From: Thermaerobacter sp. PB12/4term
Lineage (GTDB): Bacteria > Bacillota > Sulfobacillia > Thermaerobacterales > Thermaerobacteraceae
DNA length: 64,000 nucleotides
Reading direction: 5' to 3'
Assembly (NCBI RefSeq): GCF_003403315.2
Contig: NZ_CP048407.1
Span: 1,922,001-1,986,000 of the forward strand
Made by a program: the position numbers and the translations under genes. The notes under the pieces were generated by a model. That model saw nothing but the letters and a program-made list of their open reading frames with translations. It ran no database searches and was not told the DNA's origin. Of the stretch, positions 14,444 through 32,681 are shown in pieces (position 1 is the first letter of the stretch; the number at the start of each line of letters is the position of its first letter).

Positions 14444-17400
14444 TTAAAACCGGTGCTCCCGCCAGAAGGCTCTCACCTCCCGGACGAACGCGGCCGGTTC
14501 TTCCAGGTGGACGGTGTGCCCTGCCCCCGGGACGATCACCGCCCGCCCGCGCGGAATCCGCCCGGCCATGGTGCGGGCCAGGGCGGCGTACTTGGCATCG
14601 GCCGCACCCGCCAGGCACAGCACCGGCATGGGGAGATCCGCCAGGCGGTCCCAGAGGGGCGTCTGAACCCCGGCCCCCATGCCTCGCAGGCTGCCGGCCA
14701 GCCCCCGCGGTCGCTGGGCCAGGCGGGTGGCCCGGACCGACGCCCGGGCGGCGGGGTCGAGGTCCTTAAGCCCGGCAAAGAGGGGAAGCTCTTCCCAGGC
14801 CCGGGTGAAGGCCCCGACCCCCTCCTCCTCGATCCGGCGGGCCAGGGCCTCGTCGGACCGGCGGCGGGCCTCCCGCTCGCCGGGGCCGGCCAGCCCGGGC
14901 GACGACGACTCCAGCACCACCGAAGCCACCCGCTCCGGCGCCGCGGCCGCCAGGCTCAGGGCCACCCGCCCGCCCATGGAGTAGCCCACCAGGTGCACTC
15001 GCCCGATGCCCAGCCGGTCCAGCAGGGCCACCAGGTCGGCGACCTGCTCCTCCATGTGGTAGCGGTCCGGGCCGGCCGGCGCCGCCGACCGGCCGTGGCC
15101 CAGAAGGTCGACGGCCAGCAGTGGCCCCGCGGCGGCCAGCTGGGACCAGACCCCCGCCCAGGTGGCGGTGCTGCCGGTGAAACCGTGGAGCAGCAGCGCC
15201 GGTTCCGGGAGCATGGAGGTGTCGCCGCCCAGCAGAAGCGGCGCCGGTTCCAGATGCCTTGAGGCGCCGCCGGACCGTGGCGCCAGCTCCGAGAGCCTGG
15301 GGGCGCCGCCGGCCCGTAGTGCCGCTTCAGGAAGTCCCGACGGGCCCCCGGCTGAGCCGGGAGCCCCGACTGGCCCGCCCCCCGCGGCCAGCCCGGCCAC
15401 GGCCGGCGTCGCGGGCCCGCCGGAGCCGGAGGGCGAGGGCCGCCGGGGATCACCGGGGCGCGAGGGCGCGGCGTCCCCATCCAGTGGCAGGGTCGCCGTC
15501 TCTCTCCCCGGCTCCCGGGTCGCGGGCTCCCCGCCCGGCCGGGAGGCCGCGGCCGCGAGCGCACCGCTCTGGTGGAGCGGCCAGCCCTCGGCTTCGACGT
15601 AATAGCGGGCCCCGCGGACCCGGACGAACCCGGCCCGGGCACCCCCGGCCGGAGGCGCAGCCCCAGGCTCCTGACCGGTCCTGCCGGCCCCAGGACCCCG
15701 AGCCTGCCCGCCGGCCCCATGTTCCCCAGCCCTCCCGCCGGCGCCGGGCTCACCAGCCTTCCCGCCGGCGCTGTGCTCGCCAGCCTTCCCGCCGTCCGAC
15801 TCCCCCGCCTGCCCGGTGCCCGGCCCCGCGGCCTGTCCGGTGCTCGACTCCGCGGCCTGCGCTGCCAGCAAGTCCGGCGGCCGGGGTACCGGGGCCTCCT
15901 GGTCCGGACGCCCCCTGCCCTCCGCTGCCGGGCGGGCTGAAATCGCCGCAGCCCCATGGCCGTCGGGCTCCAGGGCCCGGGCGGTGGCCGCCTCCGCCGG
16001 CTCACCTGCCAGCCCGGCCTCTGCCAGCGCGGCCGCCACCGCCTGCCAGATCTGCCGGTGGTGGTCCACATTGCGCTGCCGGTTCGTCCGGATCTCGACG
16101 ATGGACGGGCCAGGGGTGTTGCCGTCCGCAGGGCCGGTGCGCTCCCCGGGGGCGCCCGCAGCGCCCGGGAGGCCGGTTCCACCGCCGCCCGGCGCCCGGC
16201 CGAGCGCCTCCTGCACGGCCGCCCGGAAGGCGTCCCAGGTGTCCACCCGGCGGTAGGGGATCCCGTACAGGGCCGCGGCGTGGCGAAAGTCCAGCCCGTG
16301 GGGCGTGCCCCAGAGGGGCTCAAACTCCGCCGGATCCAGCCGGCTCTGGGCCAGGAAGGAGAAGATCCCCCCGCCGTCGTTGTTCACCACCACCGTGACC
16401 AGGGGCAGGCCGTAGCGGGCGGCCGCCCAGAGACCGTTAAGGTCGTGATAAAAGGAAAGGTCGCCGATCAGCAGCACCACGGGCCCCTCGCCGGCCGCCG
16501 CCACCCCTGCGGCGGTGGAGACCACCCCGTCGATGCCGGCGGCTCCGCGGTTGGCCAGGATGCGGACGGGGCGCGGGCCCGCCGGGAAAAAGGTGTCCAC
16601 GTCCCGGATGGGCATGCTGTTGCCGGCAAAGAGCAGGCTGCCCGCAGGCAGGAGCCGGGCCAGCTCCGCCACCACCCGGGGCTCGGCCGGTTCGTCCCAC
16701 CGGGCCAGCTGGCGGGCCATGGCCTGGCGGGCGATGTGGTTGAGGCGCTGCCAGAGGCCCAGCCAGGAACCGGCGCCCGGAGGCCTTGACGCATCGCCGG
16801 GCGCCGGGACGGGATCCACCGGACCGCCGGCGCCTACCGAACCGGCCGGGACGCTCCCGCTGGAGAAACCGGTGGAGGAACCGGCCGTCCCTTGGCCGGG
16901 CAGTGCGCCTTCATCCTGGTGCGCCGGTGGGCCGCCCGCCCGGGATGCCACCCCCGTCCCGGCGGTTTGCCGGGTCTCCGACCCCGGGGCACCTTCGCGT
17001 TGCGTATCGGCCACGGCGCCGGGCCCGCCCTGCCCGCCGCCGGGCTGTGCCTCGCCAGCCGGGGCCGGTTCGTCCCCGCAATAGGCCGCCGCCAGCTGCG
17101 CCAGCTGCCAGCAGGCCTGCACGGGGTCCGCCCGCACCACCAGCGCCGCCCCGTGGCTGGGGTCGGGCCAGCCGCCCTCGTCGATCACCACCTGCACGGC
17201 CCGGGGGTGCCGCTCCAGGAACTGGGCCAGGGGCTTGGACACCGGCATGCCGCCCAGGCGCAGGACCACGTCGGGGGCCAGGGCCGACGCCAGGGCGGGG
17301 ACCCGCAGGAACGCATCGTAGGCATCGATGATGGGGCCCGGGATGGGGCCCTGCATCCCGCCCTGGGCGGAACCCTGAACGGAACCCGCCACGGGCCCCT

Positions 17401-19081
17401 CGGCGGGGTCCTGGGCGACGCCCTCCCCGGTCGCCTGCGCCTCCCGGGCCAGCCCGGGGGCCGTCCCGGCGGCCTCGTTCCCGGCCGCGCCTCCGGCCAC
17501 CCCGCCGCCCGGGCCGGCGGCCGCCGCGGCATCCGGCCCCGCAGCCACCGCCTCACCCTGCTGGGCCGCGGGTGCCGCCCCACCCTGCTGACCCCAAGCC
17601 GCAGGTCCACCCTGCCGCGTCCCGGCCGCCGGCCCGGCCTGCCGAGCCGCCTGCTGCGCCCCGTACGCCTCCGCGGACGCATGGGGGCCGCACCGCACCC
17701 CGGACAGGGGATCGGCCAGCACCGGCAAGCCAAGGCGCCGGGCCAGCCGGGTCACCGCCACGGCCAGGGGCGGTCCCTCCGCCGAGAAGGCCGGTGCGCC
17801 GCCGGGACCGCCCGCCGCCGGCCCCACACCGGGGGCCACCGCCAGTACGGGAGAAAGGGGCCCGCAGACGATGAGCCCCCGCCGCGCACCGGCCAGCAAG
17901 CCGAAGAGCTCGTGGGCCTGGGCCTCCGTCAGGGCAGCGGCCCCGAGCCTTGGCTCGACGGGCTGCCGCCGGGCAGGCCGCGGCTGAGCGGACGTCAGCG
18001 GGGCCTGCCACGGCCCTCCGGACACCGGCTGGGCAGGGCCACCAGCCAGCCGCCCCTCGCCGGCGAGGTGCGCCTCGACGGCCTCCCGATCCGGCGGGCC
18101 CTGTCCAACCGGCTCCCCCCCGGCGAGCCCGCGTTCAACGGCCGCCAGGCCTTGCACCATGCCAACGGCATCAGCGGCTGCGGCCGCCCCCACCGCAGCG
18201 GGATGGGACGAGGCGCCGGCTCCGGCCGGCCGGGATGCTGCCGGCGCCTCCGGCACCAGGGGCTCCCGGAAGGGCACGTTCAGGTGGACGGGCCCGGCCG
18301 GGGCCGCCAGGGCCTCGGTCACCGCCCGCACCGCCGCCCGGGTCACGTAGGCCCGGGCAGCGGGGTCGTCTTCCGGCAGGGGCAGGTCGGCAAACCACTT
18401 GGCGTGCCGGCCGTAGAGGTGGATCTGGTCCACGGTCTGGGAGGCGCCGAACTCCCGCAGCTCGTGGGGCCGGTCGGCGGAAAGGACCACCAGCGGAACC
18501 CGGCCGTAGCGCGCTTCGATCACCGCCGGGTAGAAGTTGGCCGGCGCCGTCCCCGACGTGGCCACCACCGCCGCCGGGCGGCCCGTAGCGCGCCCGAGCC
18601 CCAGGGCGAAAAAGGCCGCCGAGCGCTCGTCCAGCTGCACCCAGAGCCGCACCCCAGGGTGCCGGGCCGCCGCCAGGGCCAGAGGCGTGGACCGCGACCC
18701 CGGGCAGACCACCACGTGCTCGACCCCCGCGCTCACCAGGCCGTCCATCAGGGCCAGAGCCCAGGCCAGGTTGGTCCGGCCCAGGTCCGGTCCCGGCGGC
18801 GCCGCAGGTCCGGCCACCACAGCAGGTGCGATGGTCCCAGGGAGGCCGGAAGGCCCGGCGGATCCACCAGGACCGGCAGGCGCGTCAGCCCCCGCAAGGC
18901 CCGCAGGCCCGGCAGCTCCAGCGGGACCCGCAGGGCCGGCGGACCCGTTGCCGGCGTCTTCCGTCACGGAGGAAGCGCCGGCCACCGCACCCCCCGCTGC
19001 GGGCCCGCCGGCGGCGCCGGCCCTTCCCGCGCCGGGCTCCTCCCGCTTCCCTTGGGGGCCTGCTCCGACCGGCTCAGCCAC
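14444..19081 (-). CDS. menD: MenD-MenH fusion: SEPHCHC synthase and SHCHC synthase in one chain
   Basis: This 1545-residue protein joins two successive menaquinone enzymes. After a ~100-residue Ala/Gly/Pro tail, the ThDP enzyme MenD begins (GRTNLAWALALMDG near 101; VCPGSRSTPLALAAA; the catalytic-glutamate helix LDERSAAFFALG near 148). Its pyrophosphate domain carries GDLSFYHDLNGL near 874 and NNDGGGIFSF near 900. From about residue 1290 an alpha/beta hydrolase follows (LLLHGFTGS, nucleophile in GYSMGG, Asp in AGAADAKY, His in GAGHTVHLE), matching MenH. MenD is usually about 580 residues and MenH about 260, so roughly 700 residues are low-complexity insertions and linkers. GTG at 19081 overlaps the menF stop by 8 bases and has GGAGGTGG upstream, so translation is coupled to menF. 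Confidence 0.9.
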   Translation of the reverse strand: MAEPVGAGPQGKREEPGAGRAGAAGGPAAGGAVAGASSVTEDAGNGSAGPAGPAGAAGPAGLAGADAPAGPGGSAGPSGLPGTIAPAVVAGPAAPPGPDLGRTNLAWALALMDGLVSAGVEHVVVCPGSRSTPLALAAARHPGVRLWVQLDERSAAFFALGLGRATGRPAAVVATSGTAPANFYPAVIEARYGRVPLVVLSADRPHELREFGASQTVDQIHLYGRHAKWFADLPLPEDDPAARAYVTRAAVRAVTEALAAPAGPVHLNVPFREPLVPEAPAASRPAGAGASSHPAAVGAAAAADAVGMVQGLAAVERGLAGGEPVGQGPPDREAVEAHLAGEGRLAGGPAQPVSGGPWQAPLTSAQPRPARRQPVEPRLGAAALTEAQAHELFGLLAGARRGLIVCGPLSPVLAVAPGVGPAAGGPGGAPAFSAEGPPLAVAVTRLARRLGLPVLADPLSGVRCGPHASAEAYGAQQAARQAGPAAGTRQGGPAAWGQQGGAAPAAQQGEAVAAGPDAAAAAGPGGGVAGGAAGNEAAGTAPGLAREAQATGEGVAQDPAEGPVAGSVQGSAQGGMQGPIPGPIIDAYDAFLRVPALASALAPDVVLRLGGMPVSKPLAQFLERHPRAVQVVIDEGGWPDPSHGAALVVRADPVQACWQLAQLAAAYCGDEPAPAGEAQPGGGQGGPGAVADTQREGAPGSETRQTAGTGVASRAGGPPAHQDEGALPGQGTAGSSTGFSSGSVPAGSVGAGGPVDPVPAPGDASRPPGAGSWLGLWQRLNHIARQAMARQLARWDEPAEPRVVAELARLLPAGSLLFAGNSMPIRDVDTFFPAGPRPVRILANRGAAGIDGVVSTAAGVAAAGEGPVVLLIGDLSFYHDLNGLWAAARYGLPLVTVVVNNDGGGIFSFLAQSRLDPAEFEPLWGTPHGLDFRHAAALYGIPYRRVDTWDAFRAAVQEALGRAPGGGGTGLPGAAGAPGERTGPADGNTPGPSIVEIRTNRQRNVDHHRQIWQAVAAALAEAGLAGEPAEAATARALEPDGHGAAAISARPAAEGRGRPDQEAPVPRPPDLLAAQAAESSTGQAAGPGTGQAGESDGGKAGEHSAGGKAGEPGAGGRAGEHGAGGQARGPGAGRTGQEPGAAPPAGGARAGFVRVRGARYYVEAEGWPLHQSGALAAAASRPGGEPATREPGRETATLPLDGDAAPSRPGDPRRPSPSGSGGPATPAVAGLAAGGGPVGAPGSAGGPSGLPEAALRAGGAPRLSELAPRSGGASRHLEPAPLLLGGDTSMLPEPALLLHGFTGSTATWAGVWSQLAAAGPLLAVDLLGHGRSAAPAGPDRYHMEEQVADLVALLDRLGIGRVHLVGYSMGGRVALSLAAAAPERVASVVLESSSPGLAGPGEREARRRSDEALARRIEEEGVGAFTRAWEELPLFAGLKDLDPAARASVRATRLAQRPRGLAGSLRGMGAGVQTPLWDRLADLPMPVLCLAGAADAKYAALARTMAGRIPRGRAVIVPGAGHTVHLEEPAAFVREVRAFWREHRF

Positions 19082-20903
19082 CGTGGTCCACCTCCGTGGC
19101 GCCGGGTTCCACCCCCAGGGCGGCTGCCAGCGGCTGCAGCTTCAGGGCCGTCTCCTGCCACTCGCGCCCCGGATCCGACCCCGCCACCACGCCGCAGCCG
19201 GCAAAGAGCCACGCCTCGGTCCCCCGCACCACCCCCGAACGGATGGCCACCGCCATCTCCCCCTCGCCCCGGTGGTCGAACCAGCCCAGGGGAGCCGCGT
19301 ACCAGCCCCGGGTTCGGCCCTCCCAGCGGCGGATGAACTCCAGGGCCCGCTCCCGCGGCCAGCCGCCCAAAGCCGGCGTGGGATGGAGCCGCGCCACCAG
19401 CTCCGGCACCGTGGCGCCGTCGACCACCCCGGTGATGGGCGTGTACAGGTGCTGCACGTTCTGCAGCTGGAGCAGGCGGGGCTCCGCCGGGACGTCCAGC
19501 ACCCGGCAGACCGGCCCCAGGGTGTCGCGCAGCATCCGCACCACCAACGCGTGTTCTTCCCTTTCCTTGGGGCTGGCCAGCAGTTCCCGGGCCAGGGCGG
19601 CGTCGGCTTCGGGGGTCGCCCCCCGGGCGGTCGAACCGGCCACCGCGGCCGTCTCCACGCGCCGGTCCCGGAGCCGCACCAGCCGCTCGGGCGTGGCCCC
19701 CAGGAAGACGGTGCGGTCCCGGGCCACGGCGAAGACGAAGCATTCGGGGTAACCGGCCTGCAGCCGGCGCAGGGCCGCCCCGGGATCGAAGGCCGCCCCG
19801 GCGCGCAGGTGCAGCCGGCGCGCCAGGACCACCTTGGCCAGCTCGCCCCGGCCGATGGCATCCAGCGCCGCACGTACCATGGCCTCCCAGGCCTCCCGGC
19901 CGGGCACGGCCCGGGCCCCGATGAGGGACGGGGCTCCGCCGGCACCGGACGGCCGGGCGGACGAACCGGGCCCGCCCCGCCCGCCAGCCTCACAGCGCGG
20001 GCCCGGCGCACCGGGTTCGGCACCGAGCCCTCCGGCCCCGGCCGGCCGGGAACCGGCCGGGCCGCCTGCTGCAGCCGCCGCCTTGCCCGGCCCGCCGGCT
20101 CCCGGGGCACCGGCAGGCTCGCGGGGGTCCGTCCCGCGGCTTCCCGGGCGTCGCCCGGCCGTTGAAGCCACGGCCAGCAGCGAGAGCCAGCGGCGGCCGC
20201 GCTCTCCCGCGGCGGTGGTGGCCGCCGCGGGCACGTGCAGCCGGATGCCCCCCGGGAAGATCCAGCCGGCCCCTTCGCCGGCACCGTCCGCGGCCGAGGT
20301 CCCGGCCGCCGTCCCCGCCTCCGTCCCCACCCCGGGCACCACCACCCGGTTGAAGGTGAGCCAGGTCTCGCCGCCTGTCCGGGTGACCAGCAGCTCCGGC
20401 AGAACGAAGCGGGCCGCAGGGAAGCCGGCCCACAGCAAATCCGCCGGCTCCTGGGGGTCGAAGGCAAAGCCCCCCACCACCACCGGTCCCGTGCCCCACA
20501 CGCCGTGGGGCGCATCGATGAGCGCTCCCTCACACAGGGCCTGCCAGGCGGAAGCCAGCGCCGGGGCGATGGCGGCCAGGGGCCCGGCGGGACCGGCGCC
20601 GGCCGCTTCAGACTCGGCAGCCACGCCCGGACCGGCTTCCAGGACGGCTGCCGCCCCCAGGGCGACCATGGCCATGGTGCCGCCGGGAGCGGACCAGAGA
20701 GCCCGCTCCCGGGTCAGGATGGCGGCGCCCTCAAACAGGGCGATGGGGTCCAGGTCCTCGGCGGCGACGGTAAAGCTCACCACGGAAGGTCGCCGCCCGC
20801 GCCGGGCCTGGTCCCGCGCGCGGGCATGGAGCCGGTCCAGATCGCGACTTACGGGTCCCGTGAGGGACGCAAGGTGGGGCACTTCCCTGGCCAAGGATGT
20901 CAT
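19074..20903 (-). CDS. menF: Isochorismate synthase (MenF)
   Basis: This 609-residue chorismate-binding enzyme converts chorismate to isochorismate, the first committed menaquinone step. The C-terminal catalytic half shows GELAKVVLARR, PERLVRLRDRRVETAAVAG, EEHALVVRMLRD, LQNVQHLYTPITGVV, HPTPALGGWPRE, PLGWFDHRGEGEMAVAIRS and FAGCGVVAGSDP. About 75 Gly/Ala/Pro residues are inserted between the N-terminal beta half and the catalytic half, making it longer than the usual 450-480. ATG at 20903 with AGAGGG upstream is preferred over the upstream continuation of the frame, which covers repeat-rich intergenic DNA. The stop overlaps the menD start. Confidence 0.9.
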   Translation of the reverse strand: MTSLAREVPHLASLTGPVSRDLDRLHARARDQARRGRRPSVVSFTVAAEDLDPIALFEGAAILTRERALWSAPGGTMAMVALGAAAVLEAGPGVAAESEAAGAGPAGPLAAIAPALASAWQALCEGALIDAPHGVWGTGPVVVGGFAFDPQEPADLLWAGFPAARFVLPELLVTRTGGETWLTFNRVVVPGVGTEAGTAAGTSAADGAGEGAGWIFPGGIRLHVPAAATTAAGERGRRWLSLLAVASTAGRRPGSRGTDPREPAGAPGAGGPGKAAAAAGGPAGSRPAGAGGLGAEPGAPGPRCEAGGRGGPGSSARPSGAGGAPSLIGARAVPGREAWEAMVRAALDAIGRGELAKVVLARRLHLRAGAAFDPGAALRRLQAGYPECFVFAVARDRTVFLGATPERLVRLRDRRVETAAVAGSTARGATPEADAALARELLASPKEREEHALVVRMLRDTLGPVCRVLDVPAEPRLLQLQNVQHLYTPITGVVDGATVPELVARLHPTPALGGWPRERALEFIRRWEGRTRGWYAAPLGWFDHRGEGEMAVAIRSGVVRGTEAWLFAGCGVVAGSDPGREWQETALKLQPLAAALGVEPGATEVDHGG

Positions 20904-20981
20904 CCCTCTATCCTGAGGATCGTTCGTTCGTTGAACCCGGCGGATTGTTGGTTCCTTGAATCGGCAACGGCTGGCGTCCCC

Positions 20982-21010
20982 GGTGAACTCTGGGTGAACG
21001 TTCATTCACC
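20982..21010 (-). promoter_or_regulatory. Repeat cluster upstream of menF, candidate operator
   Basis: On the minus strand TTCACC occurs twice 11 bases apart (plus-strand GGTGAAC at 20982-20988 and 20993-20999). The right copy is also part of an inverted repeat GGTGAA-N6-TTCACC. Tandem TT(A/C)AC(A/C) elements with this period are what PhoP-type OmpR regulators bind in Bacillus. The neighbouring stretch 20904-20980 is comparatively AT-rich and must hold the menF promoter, but no clear -35/-10 pair was seen. Confidence 0.4.
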
Positions 21011-22590: not shown

Positions 22591-22704
22591 CTCTCTTATC
22601 CAGAGCGGTCGAGGGACGGGCCCGATGACGCCGCGGCAACCGGCGACCTTGGTCGTGCGGTGCCAACTCCCGCGGCTCCCTCCGGGAGCCGAGAGATGAG
22701 AGAA
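22591..22704 (+). ncRNA. SAM-I (S-box) riboswitch
   Basis: The conserved S-box core is present: CTCTTATCCAGAG, GAGGGA, GGGCCCGATGACGCC, the CGGCAACC block, GGTGCCAACTCC and a closing GAGATGAGAG. The first and last elements (22593-22600 and 22695-22702) pair as helix P1. In this class SAM binding stabilises P1 and lets the terminator form, so the methionine genes are switched off when SAM is plentiful. It precedes the MetF-type fusion and the PLP enzyme. Confidence 0.95.
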
Positions 22705-22732: not shown

Positions 22733-22767
22733 AAGCCCCTTCCTCCTTCGGAAGGGGCTTCTTCTTT
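22733..22767 (+). terminator. Riboswitch-controlled terminator
   Basis: An 11-base perfect stem (AAGCCCCTTCC / GGAAGGGGCTT, 22733-22743 and 22750-22760) with a six-base loop is followed by CTTCTTT. It is the expression platform of the SAM-I element just upstream. The following 22768-22961 up to the first gene shows nothing else. Confidence 0.9.
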
Positions 22768-22961
22768 GGCCGCTAGGGCCTCAGGGACCGGAGGCGCCCC
22801 AGGGACCCAGGGGGTCCCGGAGCCCGGCGGGCCAGGGGGCCGGTGGGGCCAGGAAGGGCCCGTTCCCCCACATCGTGCAGCGCCGAGCGCCGTGCGGAAG
22901 CCTCAGGCACCCTGTGCCGGGGCGCTGTCACCGGCGCCGGGAACTGGAGGTGACGACCAGG

Positions 22962-25346
22962 GTGACCCAGCCCTTCCGGCCGGCCGCCGGACCGCGACCT
23001 GCCCACCCGGCCACGGCCAACCCACAGCCAGACGACCCGGGCCCGCCCCGGGCGGCCTTCCCTGCCGCGGGACACCCGCCAGGGGGCTCCGGCCCCGCTG
23101 GCCGTGCCGGTCCCCCTCCGGCACGACCGGTTTCAGGGGGTGGGGGCGGAGGAACCTTCGTGCCCTTCGCCCCGGATCCGGCTCCCCGAACCCTGGCGGC
23201 GGTGAGCCCTGGGCCCGTCCTGCCCGCCCTGGCCGATGGCGACCCTTCCTGGACCCTGGCCGCCCGCCCGGTCCAGCCCTCCCCCGCGGGCAACAGCCCG
23301 TCCGGCGGAGGACCCGCACCTTCCCAACCTGGCACGGGGCCGCACGGGTGGCCCCGTGCCGCGGCCCGGGAGGAGGAAGAACCGGCTCCGGGCACCGCCC
23401 TCCTGCCCCTCACCGAACCCGCCGCGGTGGAAGGCGTCCACCTGGCGGCCATCCGGGCCGGGGCCCGCCTGGTCCGCACCGCCACCCGCTGGGCCAGCCC
23501 CTGGTGGCTTCCGTCCACGTCCCCGGAGCGGATCGAGGAGGTCAATCTCTGGGCCGCCAAGCTGGCGCGGTCCGCCCGGGAGCTGGCCGGACGGCCCTGC
23601 CTGGTGGCGGGGTTTTTGGGACCGCTGCCCGCCACCGCCGCTGCCGGCGGCAGCGCCCCGCCGGAGGCCGTCCTTGAAGGCTACCGCCGCCAGGTAGCCG
23701 GGCTGCTCGCAGGGGGCGTCGACCTGTTCTGGGTTGAAGCCCGCCACCCCCAGGAGGCCGGCCTTGCCCTGAAGGCCGTGCGGGAGGCGGCCCGGTTGCC
23801 GGTGGGTGTCCTGCTGGTGGGGGAGGGGGAGCCGCCGGTTGCCCTCCCCTCCCCCTGGCTGGAGGCGTTCCACGCGGCCGGCTGGCCCGACGCCCTCGGT
23901 GTGGCCGCGGGCGGCGGGCCGGCTTGGGCGGCCCGCTGGCTGGCGGCGGTGCGGCGGGCCGGGTGGAGCGGTCCCCTGTGGGTCACCCTGGGGCAGCTGG
24001 AGAACAAGCCCGGACCGGCCGCCCGTGGGCTGGCCGCCCACAAGCCGGCCACCCAGGACACCGGCGGGTGGGATGCGTGGGATGCCCTGCGCCTTCTGGG
24101 GGCCGGCTGGGTAGGTGGAACCGGCCCCTGGCAGCCCGCGGACCTGGAGGCTCTGGCCGCCCGCATCCAAGCGGTCCACCTGGAGCCGGAGGGCCCGGCC
24201 CCGGCCCTGCCGGTCCTAGGCCCTCTGAACCGGACGGGTTCGGGCAGCGGCCCCGGCGAGCCGGACGCCGGCGAGCTGAACGCCGGCGGTCCGGCCGCCT
24301 CCCGGCCCGCCGCTGCCCTTTGGACCAGGAGCCGGCCTGCCGGTGCAGGCTCCCTCCCAGGCGACACCGCCAGCGGCAAGGGCGGGGCCGCCGGGCACTG
24401 CAGTCCCGACCCGCTGCGGGAGAAGCTGGGGCGCCGGTTCGTCATCAGCGTCGAGCTGGACCCGCCGCGGGGTCCGGTGGCCAACAAGTTCCTGGCCGAT
24501 GCCCGCACCGTGGCGGCGGCCGGAGCCGATGCCGTCAACGTGGGCGACAGCCCCATGGCCCGGCCGCGCATGGCGGCTTGGGCCGGTGCCTTGCTGGCCC
24601 GCAGCGCCGGCATCGATGCCATCATGCACTGCACCACCCGGGACCGGAACCTGATGGCCCTGCAGGCCGACCTGCTGGCCGCCCATGCCCTGGGCGTCCG
24701 CAACGTCCTGGCCCTGACGGGCGACCATCCCCGCCTGGGTTCCAGCGGCGCCTCCCCGGTGTACGACGTGGACTCCATCGGCCTGCTGGAGGTGCTGGCG
24801 GCCCTGCGGCGGGGCGAGGATCCCCGGGGCAACGCCCTGGGGGCGCCGGCCGACTTCACCGTGGCCTGCGCCCTGAGCCCGTCGGCGGACGACCTGGACC
24901 GGGAGCTGGAGCGCTTTCGCCGCAAGCTGGCGGTGGGTGTGGTGGACTTCGTCATGACCCAGCCCCTCTACGAGCTGGAGCCGCTAGAGCGGGTCCTGGA
25001 TCGCCTGGGCGGGTGCCCGGTGCCCATCGTCATGGGCGTGATGCCCCTGCACAGCGGCCGCCACGCCCACTACCTGCACCACCAGGTGCCCGGCATCTCC
25101 ATCCCCGCCCGGATCCGCGAGGCCCTGGACCGGGCCGGCGAGCGGGGCCTGGAGGTGGGCCTCCAGCTGGCCGAAGAAGTGGTGGAGGCCGCCCGGCCCT
25201 ACATTGCCGGGGTCTACGTGGTGGTCTCCTACGGGAAGGCGGAGCCGGTGGCCGAGTTCGTCCGCCGCTTGCGGGCCCGGCTGGACGGCCCCCTGCCCGC
25301 GGCTGCAGCCCGGAGCCCGGAGGAGGTGCGCCACCATGCCGGTTGA
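22962..25346 (+). CDS. Methylenetetrahydrofolate reductase fused to a degenerate homocysteine S-methyltransferase-like domain
   Basis: This 794-residue protein has the layout of Bacillus YitJ (homocysteine methyltransferase plus MetF). Residues ~480-785 are a full 5,10-methylene-THF reductase: FVISVELDPPRGP, then HCTTRDRN, VLALTGDHP and FVMTQPLYELE. The preceding part (about residues 150-410) keeps the barrel pattern of Hcy-binding domains (EGVHLAAIRAGARLVRT, EEVNLWAAKLAR, LLAGGVDLFWVEARH). The three zinc cysteines are lost, however: the NC position reads GVAAGG and GGCCG reads GGTGP. The first ~150 residues are Pro/Gly-rich. GTG at 22962 is chosen because GGAGGTG lies 9 bases upstream; GTG 22950 is the alternative. 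It lies under SAM-I control. Confidence 0.88.
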   Translation: MTQPFRPAAGPRPAHPATANPQPDDPGPPRAAFPAAGHPPGGSGPAGRAGPPPARPVSGGGGGGTFVPFAPDPAPRTLAAVSPGPVLPALADGDPSWTLAARPVQPSPAGNSPSGGGPAPSQPGTGPHGWPRAAAREEEEPAPGTALLPLTEPAAVEGVHLAAIRAGARLVRTATRWASPWWLPSTSPERIEEVNLWAAKLARSARELAGRPCLVAGFLGPLPATAAAGGSAPPEAVLEGYRRQVAGLLAGGVDLFWVEARHPQEAGLALKAVREAARLPVGVLLVGEGEPPVALPSPWLEAFHAAGWPDALGVAAGGGPAWAARWLAAVRRAGWSGPLWVTLGQLENKPGPAARGLAAHKPATQDTGGWDAWDALRLLGAGWVGGTGPWQPADLEALAARIQAVHLEPEGPAPALPVLGPLNRTGSGSGPGEPDAGELNAGGPAASRPAAALWTRSRPAGAGSLPGDTASGKGGAAGHCSPDPLREKLGRRFVISVELDPPRGPVANKFLADARTVAAAGADAVNVGDSPMARPRMAAWAGALLARSAGIDAIMHCTTRDRNLMALQADLLAAHALGVRNVLALTGDHPRLGSSGASPVYDVDSIGLLEVLAALRRGEDPRGNALGAPADFTVACALSPSADDLDRELERFRRKLAVGVVDFVMTQPLYELEPLERVLDRLGGCPVPIVMGVMPLHSGRHAHYLHHQVPGISIPARIREALDRAGERGLEVGLQLAEEVVEAARPYIAGVYVVVSYGKAEPVAEFVRRLRARLDGPLPAAAARSPEEVRHHAG

Positions 25347-26625
25347 ACCGGTTCCCGCCCCAAAACAGGGCGGGGCGGTCCCGCCCACCGGGGGGGCCCG
25401 CCCCGCCGCCTCGCTGCACCCGGCCACCCGGGTGGTTCACGCCGGGGTGCGCCGCGACCCCCGCACCGGGTCCGTGGCCGTGCCGATCTACCAGACGGCC
25501 ACCTACGAGCACCCGGGACCCGGCCAGACCACCGGCTGGGATTACAGCCGGCTGCACAACCCCACCCGGGAAGCCTTCGAAGAGGCGGTCAACGGGCTGG
25601 AAGACGGCTTCGCCGCCCTGGCCTTCGCCTCGGGCATGGCCGCCGTCACGGCGGTGCTGCACCTCTTCCGGCCCGGCGACCACCTGGTGGTGACCGAGGA
25701 CCTGTACGGCCATACCTGGCGGGTACTGGACGAGCTGTTCCGCCACCTGGGCATCGGCTACAGCCTGGCCGACACCACCGACGCCGCGGCCGTGGCGGAG
25801 GCCCTGACGCCGGCGACCCGGGCCGTGCTGGTGGAGAGCCCGACCAACCCCCTCATGCGGGTGGCCGACCTGGACGGGCTGGCCGCCCTGTGCCGGCGCC
25901 AGCGCCTGTGGCTCCTGGTGGACTCGACCCTGTTCACGCCCCTCTTCCAGCGGCCCCTTACCCGGGGCGCCGACGTGGTGATCCACAGCGCCAGCAAGTA
26001 CCTGGCCGGCCACAACGACCTGGTGGCGGGCGTGGCCGTGGCGGGGACCCCGGCCCTGGCGGACGAACTAGCCTCCCTGCGCACCATCACCGGAGGTATC
26101 CTGGGCCCCCACGACGCCTGGCTGGCGGTGCGGGGCCTCAAGACCCTGGCGCTGCGGATGGCCCAGGCACAACAGAACGCCCTGACCCTGGCCCACTGGC
26201 TGGAGGCCCACCCGGCGGTGGCGGCGGTGTACTATCCGGGGCTGCCGTCAAGCCCCTTCTTCCGGCGCTGCCGGCAGCAGGCGGAGGGCTTCGGGGCGAT
26301 GCTCAGCTTCCGCTTGCGGGATACCGGCCGGGCCGGCGACGTGCTGCGGCGGCTCCAGCTCATTCTCTTCGCGGAAAGCTTCGGCGGCGTGGAGAGCCTG
26401 ATCACCCACCCCGCCAGCACCACCCACAGGGAGATGCCTGCCGCCCTGCGGGAGCGGCTGGGTATCGACGCGGGACTGCTGCGGCTTTCGGTGGGCATCG
26501 AGGCGGCGGACGACCTGGCCGCCGACCTGGAGCAGGCGCTGCAGGGGCCGTCGGCCCTGTCCCTGGCGGAGGCCCGGGCCCGGGCCGAAGCCATCCTGGC
26601 CGGCCGGGCGCGGCAGGAGGCGTGA
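25336..26625 (+). CDS. Cys/Met-metabolism PLP enzyme (cystathionine gamma-synthase/beta-lyase type)
   Basis: This 429-residue type-I PLP enzyme of transsulfuration has the cofactor lysine Lys221 in HSASKYLAGHND, the YSRLHNPTREAFE entry motif near 70, SGMAAV near 99, VESPTNPLM near 167 and SFGGVESLI near 357. The HSASKYLAGHND form suits both cystathionine gamma-synthase/O-acetylhomoserine thiol-lyase (MetI) and cystathionine beta-lyase (MetC); sequence alone does not separate them. The start overlaps the upstream gene by 11 bases with an AGGAGGTG site inside it, so the two genes share the SAM-I-controlled transcript. Confidence 0.88.
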   Translation: MPVEPVPAPKQGGAVPPTGGARPAASLHPATRVVHAGVRRDPRTGSVAVPIYQTATYEHPGPGQTTGWDYSRLHNPTREAFEEAVNGLEDGFAALAFASGMAAVTAVLHLFRPGDHLVVTEDLYGHTWRVLDELFRHLGIGYSLADTTDAAAVAEALTPATRAVLVESPTNPLMRVADLDGLAALCRRQRLWLLVDSTLFTPLFQRPLTRGADVVIHSASKYLAGHNDLVAGVAVAGTPALADELASLRTITGGILGPHDAWLAVRGLKTLALRMAQAQQNALTLAHWLEAHPAVAAVYYPGLPSSPFFRRCRQQAEGFGAMLSFRLRDTGRAGDVLRRLQLILFAESFGGVESLITHPASTTHREMPAALRERLGIDAGLLRLSVGIEAADDLAADLEQALQGPSALSLAEARARAEAILAGRARQEA

Positions 26626-29485: not shown

Positions 29486-32014
29486 CTACCGGCCGCCGGC
29501 CGCAGGAGCCGGTGCCCACTCCTCCCGCAGTTCCCGGGCCGCCTGGACCATGTGCCGCAGGGCCGGTTCGACCTCCTCGTAACGCCGGGTCTTGAGGCCG
29601 CAGTCCGGGTTCACCCAGAGCTGGGCCGGGTCGAGCACCGCGGCCGCCTTGCGCAGCAGCGCCTTGATCTCGTCCACCGGCGGCACCCGGGGCGAGTGGA
29701 TGTCGTACACCCCCGGGCCGATGTCGCTGGGGTAGCGGTGCTGTACGAAGGCGTCCAGCAGCTCCATGCCCGAGCGCGAGGCCTCGATCAGGATCACGTC
29801 GGCGTCCAGGGCGGCGATGGCGTCCAGGATGTCGTTGAACTCCGAGTAGCACATGTGGGTGTGGATCTGGGTCTCCTCTCGCACCCCGCCGGTGACCAGG
29901 CGGAAGCACTCGGTGGCCCAGGCCAGGTAGGCGGGCCGGTCCGCCTGCCGCAGGGGCATGGCCTCCCGGAAGGCCGGCTCGTCGATCTGGATGACCCGGA
30001 TGCCCGCCGCCTCCAGGTCCTGGACCTCGTCGCGGATGGCCAGGGCGATCTGCCGGCAGGTCACCTCCCGGGGCTGGTCGTCCCGGACGAAGGACCACTG
30101 CAGGATGGTGACGGGCCCGGTCAGCATGCCCTTGACCGGCCGTTCCGTCAGGGACTGGGCGTAGGTGATCCACCGGACGGTCATGGGGCCGGGCCGGGCC
30201 ACGTCGCCGTAGAGGATGGGCGGCTTGACGCAGCGGCTGCCGTAGCTTTGCACCCAGCCGTGGCGGGTGAAGGCGAAGCCCTCCAGCTGCTCGGCGAAGT
30301 ACTCCACCATGTCGTTGCGCTCGGCCTCGCCGTGGACCAGCACGTCCAGGCCCAGCTCCTCCTGCAGCCGGATCACCCGGCGGATCTCGGCGCGGATGCC
30401 CTCTTCGTAGGTGGCGGTGTCGATCTCCCCGCGCCGCCAGCGCGCCCGCAGCCGGCGCACCTCCGGCGTCTGGGGGAAGGAGCCGATGGTGGTGGTGGGC
30501 AGGAGCGGAAGACCCAGCCGTTCCCGCTGCAACGGCCGCCGCTGGGGCGCCCGGGAGGGCCTGCGGGTCTCGTCCGGGTTGAGCCGCGCCAGCCGCTCCT
30601 GCACCTCCGGCCGGGTGCGCCGGGGCGAGCGGCGCCGGGCCTCCACCGCCGCCCGGCTGGCCGCCAGGGCACCGGCCACGGCCTGCCGGCCCTGGTTCAA
30701 GGCGCGGGTCAGGACCGCCACTTCCTCCAACTTCTGCTTCGCGAAGGCAAGCCAGCCCTTGATCTCCGGGTCCAGGTCCGTCTCCAGGTTCAGGTCGATG
30801 GGCACGTGCAGCAGCGAGCAGGAGGGGGCGACGAAGAGCCGCCCGGCCCCCAGGGCGTCCCGGGCCCGCTCCAGAAGGGCCAGGGCCGCCTCCAGGTCCG
30901 CCCGCCAGACGTTGCGGCCGTCCACCACCCCCAGGGAGAGGTGCAGGGTGGGCGGAACCCCGGCGGCCAGCACCTGCTCCAGCTGGCCGGGGTCCCGCAC
31001 CAGATCCAGGTGCAGGGCCTGCACCGGCAGGCTCAAGGCCAGCTCCAGGTTGTCCCGCAACCCCTCGAAGTAGGTGGCCAGGAAGAGCCGGAGCCCCGGG
31101 GCCGCCTGGGCTAAGGTGGCGTAGGCGCGGCGGAAGGCGGCCCGGGCCGGTTCGTCCAGGTCCAGGGCCAGGAACGGCTCATCCAGCTGAACCCAGGTGG
31201 CGCCGGCGGCCGCCAGCTCCCGCAGCACCTGCCCGTACACGGGCAGCAGGCCGTCCAGCAAGGCAAGGCGCGGGCCGGCGGCCCCTTCCCCGCCGGAGGA
31301 ACCGGCCGTCCGGCTGCCCAGGCCTTCGGCCTCGCTGCGGCTCGCCTCCGGGGACCGGCCGGCGGCGCCGGCCTCCGCCGGGCTGCGGAGCTTGGCCAGC
31401 AGCAGGAAGCTGACCGGGCCCAGCAGCACGGGGCGGGGCTCGAAACCCAGGGTGCGGGCCTCGCGGAACTCCTCCACCACCTTGCGGGACGCCAGGTGGA
31501 AGGCCTGTCCCGGTTCCAGCTCGGGCACGATGTAATGGTAGTTGGTGTCGAACCACTTGGTCATCTCCAGGGCGGGGACGCCCCGGCCGGGGGTGCCCCG
31601 GGCCATGGCGAAGTAGACGTCCAGGGGGACCTCCGCGGCAGCCGCGGTGCCCGGACCCGCCTCCGCCCCCAGGCCCGCCGCCGGGGTGGACCGGCCCGCG
31701 CCGGCGGCATCGCCACAAGGAGCCAGGGGGGTGGAGGCGCCGGCTCCCGGTGAAGGGGCCCACCCGTAACGGGCGGGCACGGCCCCCACCATGCAGGCGG
31801 TGTCCAGCACGTGGTCGTAGAGGGAGAAATCCCCCACGGGCACCACGTCGATGCCCGCCGCCCGCTGCAGCTCCCAGTGCCGCCGCCGCAGGGCCGCCGC
31901 CGTCGCCAGCAGGGAGTCCGCGGAAATCTTGCCGTCCCAGTAAGCCTCCAGGGCCTGTTTCAACTCCCGGCCGGCGCCGATGCGGGGGAAGCCCAGGTTG
32001 GTTGCCACGGCCAT
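29486..32014 (-). CDS. metE: Cobalamin-independent methionine synthase (MetE)
   Basis: This 842-residue enzyme moves the methyl group from methyltetrahydrofolate polyglutamate to homocysteine. The N-terminal barrel starts with [14 protein letters not shown]; the C-terminal barrel holds [14 protein letters not shown] near 505 and the zinc ligands His and Cys in THMCYSEF near 720 and Cys in NPDCGLK near 802. Two Ala/Gly/Ser-rich inserts of about 40 residues interrupt the N-terminal barrel (after [10 protein letters not shown] and after LLAKLRSP), which makes it longer than the usual ~760. ATG at 32014 has AAGGAGGCGAGG. It has its own SAM-I leader and is divergent in regulation from the MetF fusion unit. 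Confidence 0.95.
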
Positions 32015-32048
32015 GGGTCCTCGCCTCCTTCGTGGGATGGGGCTGAAA

Positions 32049-32078: not shown

Positions 32079-32088
32079 CCTCGCCTTT

Positions 32089-32201
32089 CCCTATCTCCCG
32101 GGAACGCCTCCCGCGGGAATTGGCACCGTGCCGCCTGGGTGGAGCCGGCGGCCGGTTGCCGTGGCGTCATCGGGCCCGTCCCTCGGCCACTCTCGATAGG
32201 G
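32089..32201 (-). ncRNA. SAM-I (S-box) riboswitch
   Basis: Read on the minus strand, the aptamer starts with CCCTATCGAGAG and contains GAGGGACGGGCCCGATGACG, the CGGCAACC block and GGTGCCAATTCC. It closes with GGGAGATAGGG; CCCTATC and GATAGGG form P1. It precedes metE and its terminator, so methionine synthase is shut off by SAM in the same way as the MetF/PLP unit 10 kb away. Confidence 0.95.
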
Positions 32202-32681
32202 CTTTGTCCGGTCATTCCCTTGTAAGCGACCGCGGGGTTGCAGGCGGTGCGGCCTGCAAGGCCCCCCGGGTTTCCGCATCGCCGCAGCCAAGGAAGGGGC
32301 CCATGGCCTCGCGGCCTGAGGCGCGGCACCGCGGTCCGCGGCCCTCCGGGTCTCGTTCGGCTGGCGTGAGCCCGGTGGGCTTGCAGGGCACGTTGCCCAG
32401 GTACGGCCTGGCGCCCCGGCGCCGCAGCGGGCCGGAACCCTCGCGCGGGATGCGGGCATTGGGGACTGCTATTCGGGGCCGGCGACGAAAGTCCTGCTGC
32501 CCCAACATCCAGGGTGGGGTGAAACCGCGCCATCCCCGGCGGTCGCCCGCTGCGGGCCCTGCCGGCCGCCGGCGCGCCGCTGCGGCCCGGGCTCTGCCGG
32601 CCCGAGGTGGCCCGCATCCTGCCGGCGGCAGCCTATAAGCTTATAATTGAAGGGAAAACGGCGCAAGGAGGCAGCCCAGCC
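32202..32681. other. Intergenic region between metE leader and pncA
   Basis: No gene was seen in this ~480-base stretch. It must hold the minus-strand metE promoter near 32210-32240, where no convincing boxes were found. A small hairpin TTGCAGGC / GCCTGCAA lies at 32238-32259. Near the right end is the AT-rich palindrome TATAAGCTTATA at 32634-32645 overlapping a TATAAT box (32642-32647), the probable pncA promoter region. Confidence 0.5.
32634..32647 (+). promoter_or_regulatory. AT-rich palindrome and -10 box before pncA
   Basis: The 12-base perfect palindrome TATAAGCTTATA overlaps TATAAT at 32642-32647. In this GC-rich DNA an isolated AT island 35 bases before a start codon is a good promoter candidate, and the palindrome could be an operator. 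A -35 box was not clear. Confidence 0.45.

Follow-up and report, generated by a model that had tools for sequence, protein, structure and literature searches.

The question raised by this locus of Thermaerobacter is whether the homocysteine (Hcy) methyltransferase half of a YitJ-type fusion protein still performs its chemistry and, if not, why the domain has been retained. The gene lies in a window of 64,000 nucleotides, that is, the whole stretch of DNA that was analysed (genome positions 1922001-1986000), and genome-wide searches covered the complete genome of 2,820,915 bases. Specifically, an open reading frame on the plus strand (22875-25346) encodes a PF02574 (S-methyl_trans) region followed by a PF02219 (MTHFR) domain. 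Its translation probably starts at the GTG at 22962, as suggested by the conservation of GGAGGTGACGACCAGGGTG in three congeners, and the resulting protein of 794 amino acids (22962-25346) is matched by Pfam and NCBIfam models. The gene is preceded on the same strand by a SAM-I riboswitch (S box leader; 22593-22702; Rfam RF00162, 87.6 bits), with a hairpin resembling an intrinsic terminator on its 3' side (22733-22760; an 11-pair stem and then a T-rich tail, a consensus match only). The YitJ-type layout proposed in an earlier note on this DNA, with both barrels in one frame behind a SAM-responsive leader, is present. A gene for a PLP enzyme of Cys/Met metabolism follows (25336-26625, plus strand; PF01053, 447.9 bits), whose ATG overlaps the stop codon of the fusion and is preceded by GGAGGTG. 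On the minus strand lies metE (29486-32020, start approximate), encoding a cobalamin-independent methionine synthase which is full-length (PRK05222, cut-off 541 bits, score 1143 bits), carries the zinc motifs HMC and DCG and is preceded by its own SAM-I riboswitch (32088-32202, minus strand; RF00162, 79.2 bits). Neither a second PF02574 protein nor a second MTHFR was found in the whole genome, and the suggestion that MetE can supply the methionine-forming reaction is supported.

At the level of family membership the two halves of the protein behave differently. The MTHFR half (24399-25289) scores 88.5 bits with PF02219 against a cut-off of 24, keeps the near-invariant residues of the family and matches structure 1v93 with a Z-score of 28.6. 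The N-terminal half also exceeds the gathering cut-off of PF02574 (67.7 bits against 22), the match covering only profile positions 23-168 of 283, and its barrel lacks the three zinc-binding cysteines (NC and GGCC motifs) expected of this family. As for the bifunctional Hcy S-methyltransferase/MTHFR family (NF006396/PRK08645), the domain order is that of the family and the score, 346 bits, falls below the equivalog cut-off of 453. The Hcy-like domain had been placed at 23400-24200; the motifs are indeed found there, but the domain starts earlier and spans approximately 23220 to 24182.

The alignment with relatives locates the loss precisely. In the fusion of the window, GVAAGGGP aligns with GxNCxxGP and GGTGPWQP with GGCCGTTP, so that the NC columns (23904-23909) read AA and the CC columns (24120-24125) read TG, in agreement with the earlier claim that all three cysteines are gone. 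The three zinc-cysteine columns hold A/T/V/V, T/T/T/T and G/G/G/G in four Thermaerobacter species, and cysteine in 60/60 aligned relatives. When solved structures are searched with a profile, the columns in question fall on INC and GGCC of Thermotoga maritima MetH, motifs which we take to hold the zinc in that enzyme. In BHMT, the zinc ligands are Cys217, Cys299 and Cys300 (PMC4101490), and the columns matching them are non-ligands in Thermaerobacter. Substitute ligands were looked for among the Cys and His positions of the congeners' domain and none was found: no Cys/His cluster lies near the site, and His93 and Cys146 are the only Cys or His residues invariant in the genus. The counterpart of the GDGAMGT loop, on the other hand, is not absent, as had been thought, but altered. 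Strand 1 and its loop, LADGDPSWTLAA (23229-23264), contain LADGDPSW, in which the Asp (Asp25) and the DPSW are invariant in 4/4 species, and a variable low-complexity insert of 44 residues and low pLDDT follows (23265-23396), with 1/45 positions invariant in congeners.

The loss extends beyond the metal site. If columns are called near-invariant when they agree in at least 95% of 60 intact relatives, the Hcy half has 45; all four species keep 23 of them and 13 are lost, while another 8 are kept in part and 1 is gapped. In particular, 12 of the 13 lost columns belong to the DGAMGT, ET, NC, PNAG and CCGT segments, the thirteenth being a Tyr in the first helix; the PNAG segment (24000-24011) is hard to align in the congeners, which makes the loss of any single column there less certain. 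The columns that are kept are mostly structural, with structural Gly, Pro and Arg positions among them. Part of the putative amino-acid pocket also persists: Asp25, Thr106 and Thr108 are kept in 4/4 species and Glu192 in 3/4, at columns that presumably contact the amino acid in MetH and BHMT structures. By comparison, 38/41 near-invariant columns of the MTHFR half are kept in all four congeners. Cys146 (23598-23600), at the start of strand 3, is the only congener-invariant cysteine and does not occur at that column in the displayed relatives. One congener (L005 of genome G003) has lost the near-invariant Glu192 and, in addition, has some 60 residues of repeat-like sequence inserted into the second half of its barrel.

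Structure prediction returns a complete (beta/alpha)8 barrel for 23220-24182, with eight strands, a mean AlphaFold2 pLDDT of 78.9 and a pTM of 0.81; because the alignments behind the models consisted of intact relatives, congeners left out, the models are biased toward an intact barrel and cannot prove that the diverged one folds, and its intactness is best regarded as a prediction. Foldseek places MetH, MmuM and BHMT at the top ranks for this model, and the nearest structures are MetH Hcy domains, with a Z-score of 29.6 and an rmsd of 3.3 over 279 residues to 9cbp. The model of the whole fusion has a pTM of 0.76, with 143 residues at pLDDT below 50 and a predicted disordered linker between the barrels (24201-24398; model residues 347-412). 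Judged without PAE, this pTM hints at a defined packing of the two barrels. A MetH-like packing was considered and discarded, since the modelled arrangement appears to differ from that of MetH, with a superposition rmsd of about 20 Å. Long low-complexity inserts rich in Ala, Gly and Pro, like the linkers of the fusion, also occur in the MenD-like reading frame, which has a hydrolase-like part at its C-terminus, and the MenF-like reading frame of the window (14444-21005, minus strand), as recognized by eye from their translations.

How widely the zinc site has been lost was addressed by comparison with relatives. The loss is common to four Thermaerobacter species, including T. marianensis, a sample in which two species are 94% alike. 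PF02574 is present in 72/151 genomes of the class, scoring about 70-73 bits in the four Thermaerobacter genomes; in each of the other class genomes with a match, the top score is 174.6-265 bits. All 25 fusions retrieved from other class families (L006-L031 except L017) have the GGCC motif, and those displayed in the alignment also have DGAxGT and NC. The search of relatives for an equal loss, recommended by the earlier note, found none among 80 named relatives (from Chloroflexota, Obscuribacterales, Zixiibacteriota, Armatimonadota, Bacillota and others), 80/80 of which keep the NC cysteine and the CC pair. Three apparent exceptions were dismissed, one as a frameshifted assembly (L048) and two as harmless variants (L100, L109). 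For 398 genomes of the phylum, the only other score as weak among the matches listed (G458, 5e-18) probably reflects truncation, as that genome is 72% complete in 340 contigs and G391, from the same genus, reaches 1e-74. When a tree is built from the MTHFR half alone, the four species group together as a clade (100/99) whose sister group consists of the intact fusions of class family f38 (99/97). This tree places the loss once, on the stem of the genus, beside a clade with an intact site. Two draft genomes from the same family and the same order (G004, G005) contain MetE with no match to the fusion, and in one of them (G004) MTHFR is not matched either.

The reading that we consider clearly the most probable joins these observations as follows. 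The MTHFR half would still make 5-methyl-tetrahydrofolate, and MetE, under its own SAM riboswitch, would turn the methyl group of this folate to methionine formation. Zinc binding and catalysis by the barrel would have been lost once, before the sampled species diverged, and the dead but folded barrel at the N-terminus would be retained because the MTHFR half needs a scaffold or something to pack against, with selection on it weaker than on an enzyme. As already anticipated in the earlier note, catalysis by the Hcy half is very unlikely, because the zinc ligands that activate the thiol are lost; the loss of near-invariant loop residues in 4/4 species and the relaxed constraint point the same way. 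What remains is probably an enzyme with a single function to which a dead domain is attached. The presence of MetE as the sole cause of the loss was discarded, and MetE redundancy is permissive but insufficient, because the f38 relatives carry full-length MetE beside an intact fusion.

Why the barrel persists has to be judged from the selection acting on it. Within the genus, omega (Nei-Gojobori; some dS values are high, which makes single ratios rough) is 0.35-0.48 for the Hcy-like region against 0.06-0.10 for MTHFR, and reaches 1.35 in the inter-domain linker. The dN contrast, which is independent of dS, is a ratio of Hcy to MTHFR of 4.9-10.6 in the genus against 0.6-1.7 in three families with an intact site. 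In other words, constraint on the Hcy-like domain is relaxed and selection is still purifying. It is conceivable, albeit improbable, that the domain is simply decaying without function and is held only because the N-terminus has to be translated ahead of the MTHFR half; in line with this are a dN 5-11 times as high as in MTHFR, gaps that affect up to 35-87 columns when species are compared, and stretches that evolve like linkers. However, omega stays below 1, the four species agree at 61% of positions 79-158 against 2-4% in the two variable segments, and the Gly, Pro and Arg columns of structural importance have been preserved. Because fold residues are retained and omega is below 1, the barrel would still matter, and the simplest account of its role is that of a scaffold. 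Lost catalytic residues together with fold residues apparently under purifying selection correspond to what is called a pseudoenzyme, so the best reading is a genus-wide pseudoenzyme domain, kept mainly as a folded scaffold.

The same constraint could instead reflect a new function rather than scaffolding, as omega below 1 is accompanied by conserved replacements (TG in 4/4 species, DPSW in 4/4). In its explicit form, this alternative makes the dead barrel a sensor that binds homocysteine, methionine or SAM without reaction and controls the attached MTHFR. The surviving Asp25, Thr106/Thr108 and, in three species, Glu192, the nearly or fully invariant LADGDPSW loop and new Cys146, and the position of the gene in the SAM regulon all agree with it; yet what constraint there is appears weak and is distributed along the fold, one species has lost Glu192, and both sequence and length differ between species in the PNAG loop and in much of the second half. 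We regard such a sensor as rather unlikely, marginally less likely than decay, and its stricter version, a ligand-sensing regulatory domain of a bacterial MTHFR acting through the surviving amino-acid pocket, as slightly less likely again; the data favour a structural role over a regulatory one. That the barrel is still a methyltransferase, using other zinc ligands or a metal-free mechanism, is very hard to credit: the predicted barrel is still there, as are Asp25 and most columns for binding the amino acid, but the domain has no Cys/His cluster, His93 and Cys146 are its sole invariant Cys or His residues, the PNAG, NC and CC motifs are lost together with part of the DGAMGT loop, and constraint is relaxed. 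Even less credence can be given to a sequencing error or frameshift in a single genome. A frameshift of this kind does exist in the assembly of one relative, the already mentioned L048, but four separately assembled species have equal replacements in an open frame, which refutes it.

The closest known systems help to define what is particular to Thermaerobacter. The YitJ-type proteins (PRK08645, NF006396; YitJ of Bacillus subtilis, or SamT) are alike in domain order, MTHFR half and barrel, whereas the Thermaerobacter fusion is without the zinc cysteines and several catalytic-loop residues. Control by a SAM-I riboswitch is also in common with B. subtilis yitJ (Lu et al. 2010, as cited in PMC5743806). 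It has been proposed that the Hcy domain of that protein uses (R,S)-AdoMet (PMC6302742, PMC5743806). If using up (R,S)-SAM were the general role of the YitJ domain, Thermaerobacter would have given this role up. SAM should racemise faster in a thermophile. The Hcy domain of MetH (T. maritima 1q8j, T. thermophilus 9cbp) has the same (beta/alpha)8 fold (Z 26.5-29.6), but it is joined to a folate/B12 module and the Thermaerobacter barrel, without zinc ligands, to MTHFR. BHMT and MmuM are alike in fold (Z 22.8-27.8). Were the barrel a sensor, it would stand for an independent way of evolving the SAM feedback known from eukaryotic MTHFR, where control operates through a C-terminal domain unrelated to the Hcy barrel.

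Literature searches returned no paper on the Hcy domain in Thermaerobacter, none on the fusion under the terms used, and nothing relevant on pseudoenzymes in connection with homocysteine. The case does not represent a new system; rather, it is a clean natural example of a bifunctional enzyme with one domain that lost its chemistry in a single event and a partner that remained strictly conserved. It also has a practical side, as automatic annotation could easily call the gene bifunctional and methionine-forming, crediting these organisms with a methyltransferase that they probably lack. A similar event is known from the MesB-like core methionine synthases of Chloroflexales, methionine-synthase homologues in which the zinc ligands are not conserved (PMC7857596), although these are separate proteins of the MetE fold and the Thermaerobacter barrel is a domain on MTHFR. 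Core-MetE-like (PF01717) genes were also encountered among the class relatives: in families f8, f18, f47 and others (L006-L008, L018-L031), two adjacent genes of this type adjoin the intact fusion and replace full-length MetE, as for example at G073:C1:3437910-3441737.
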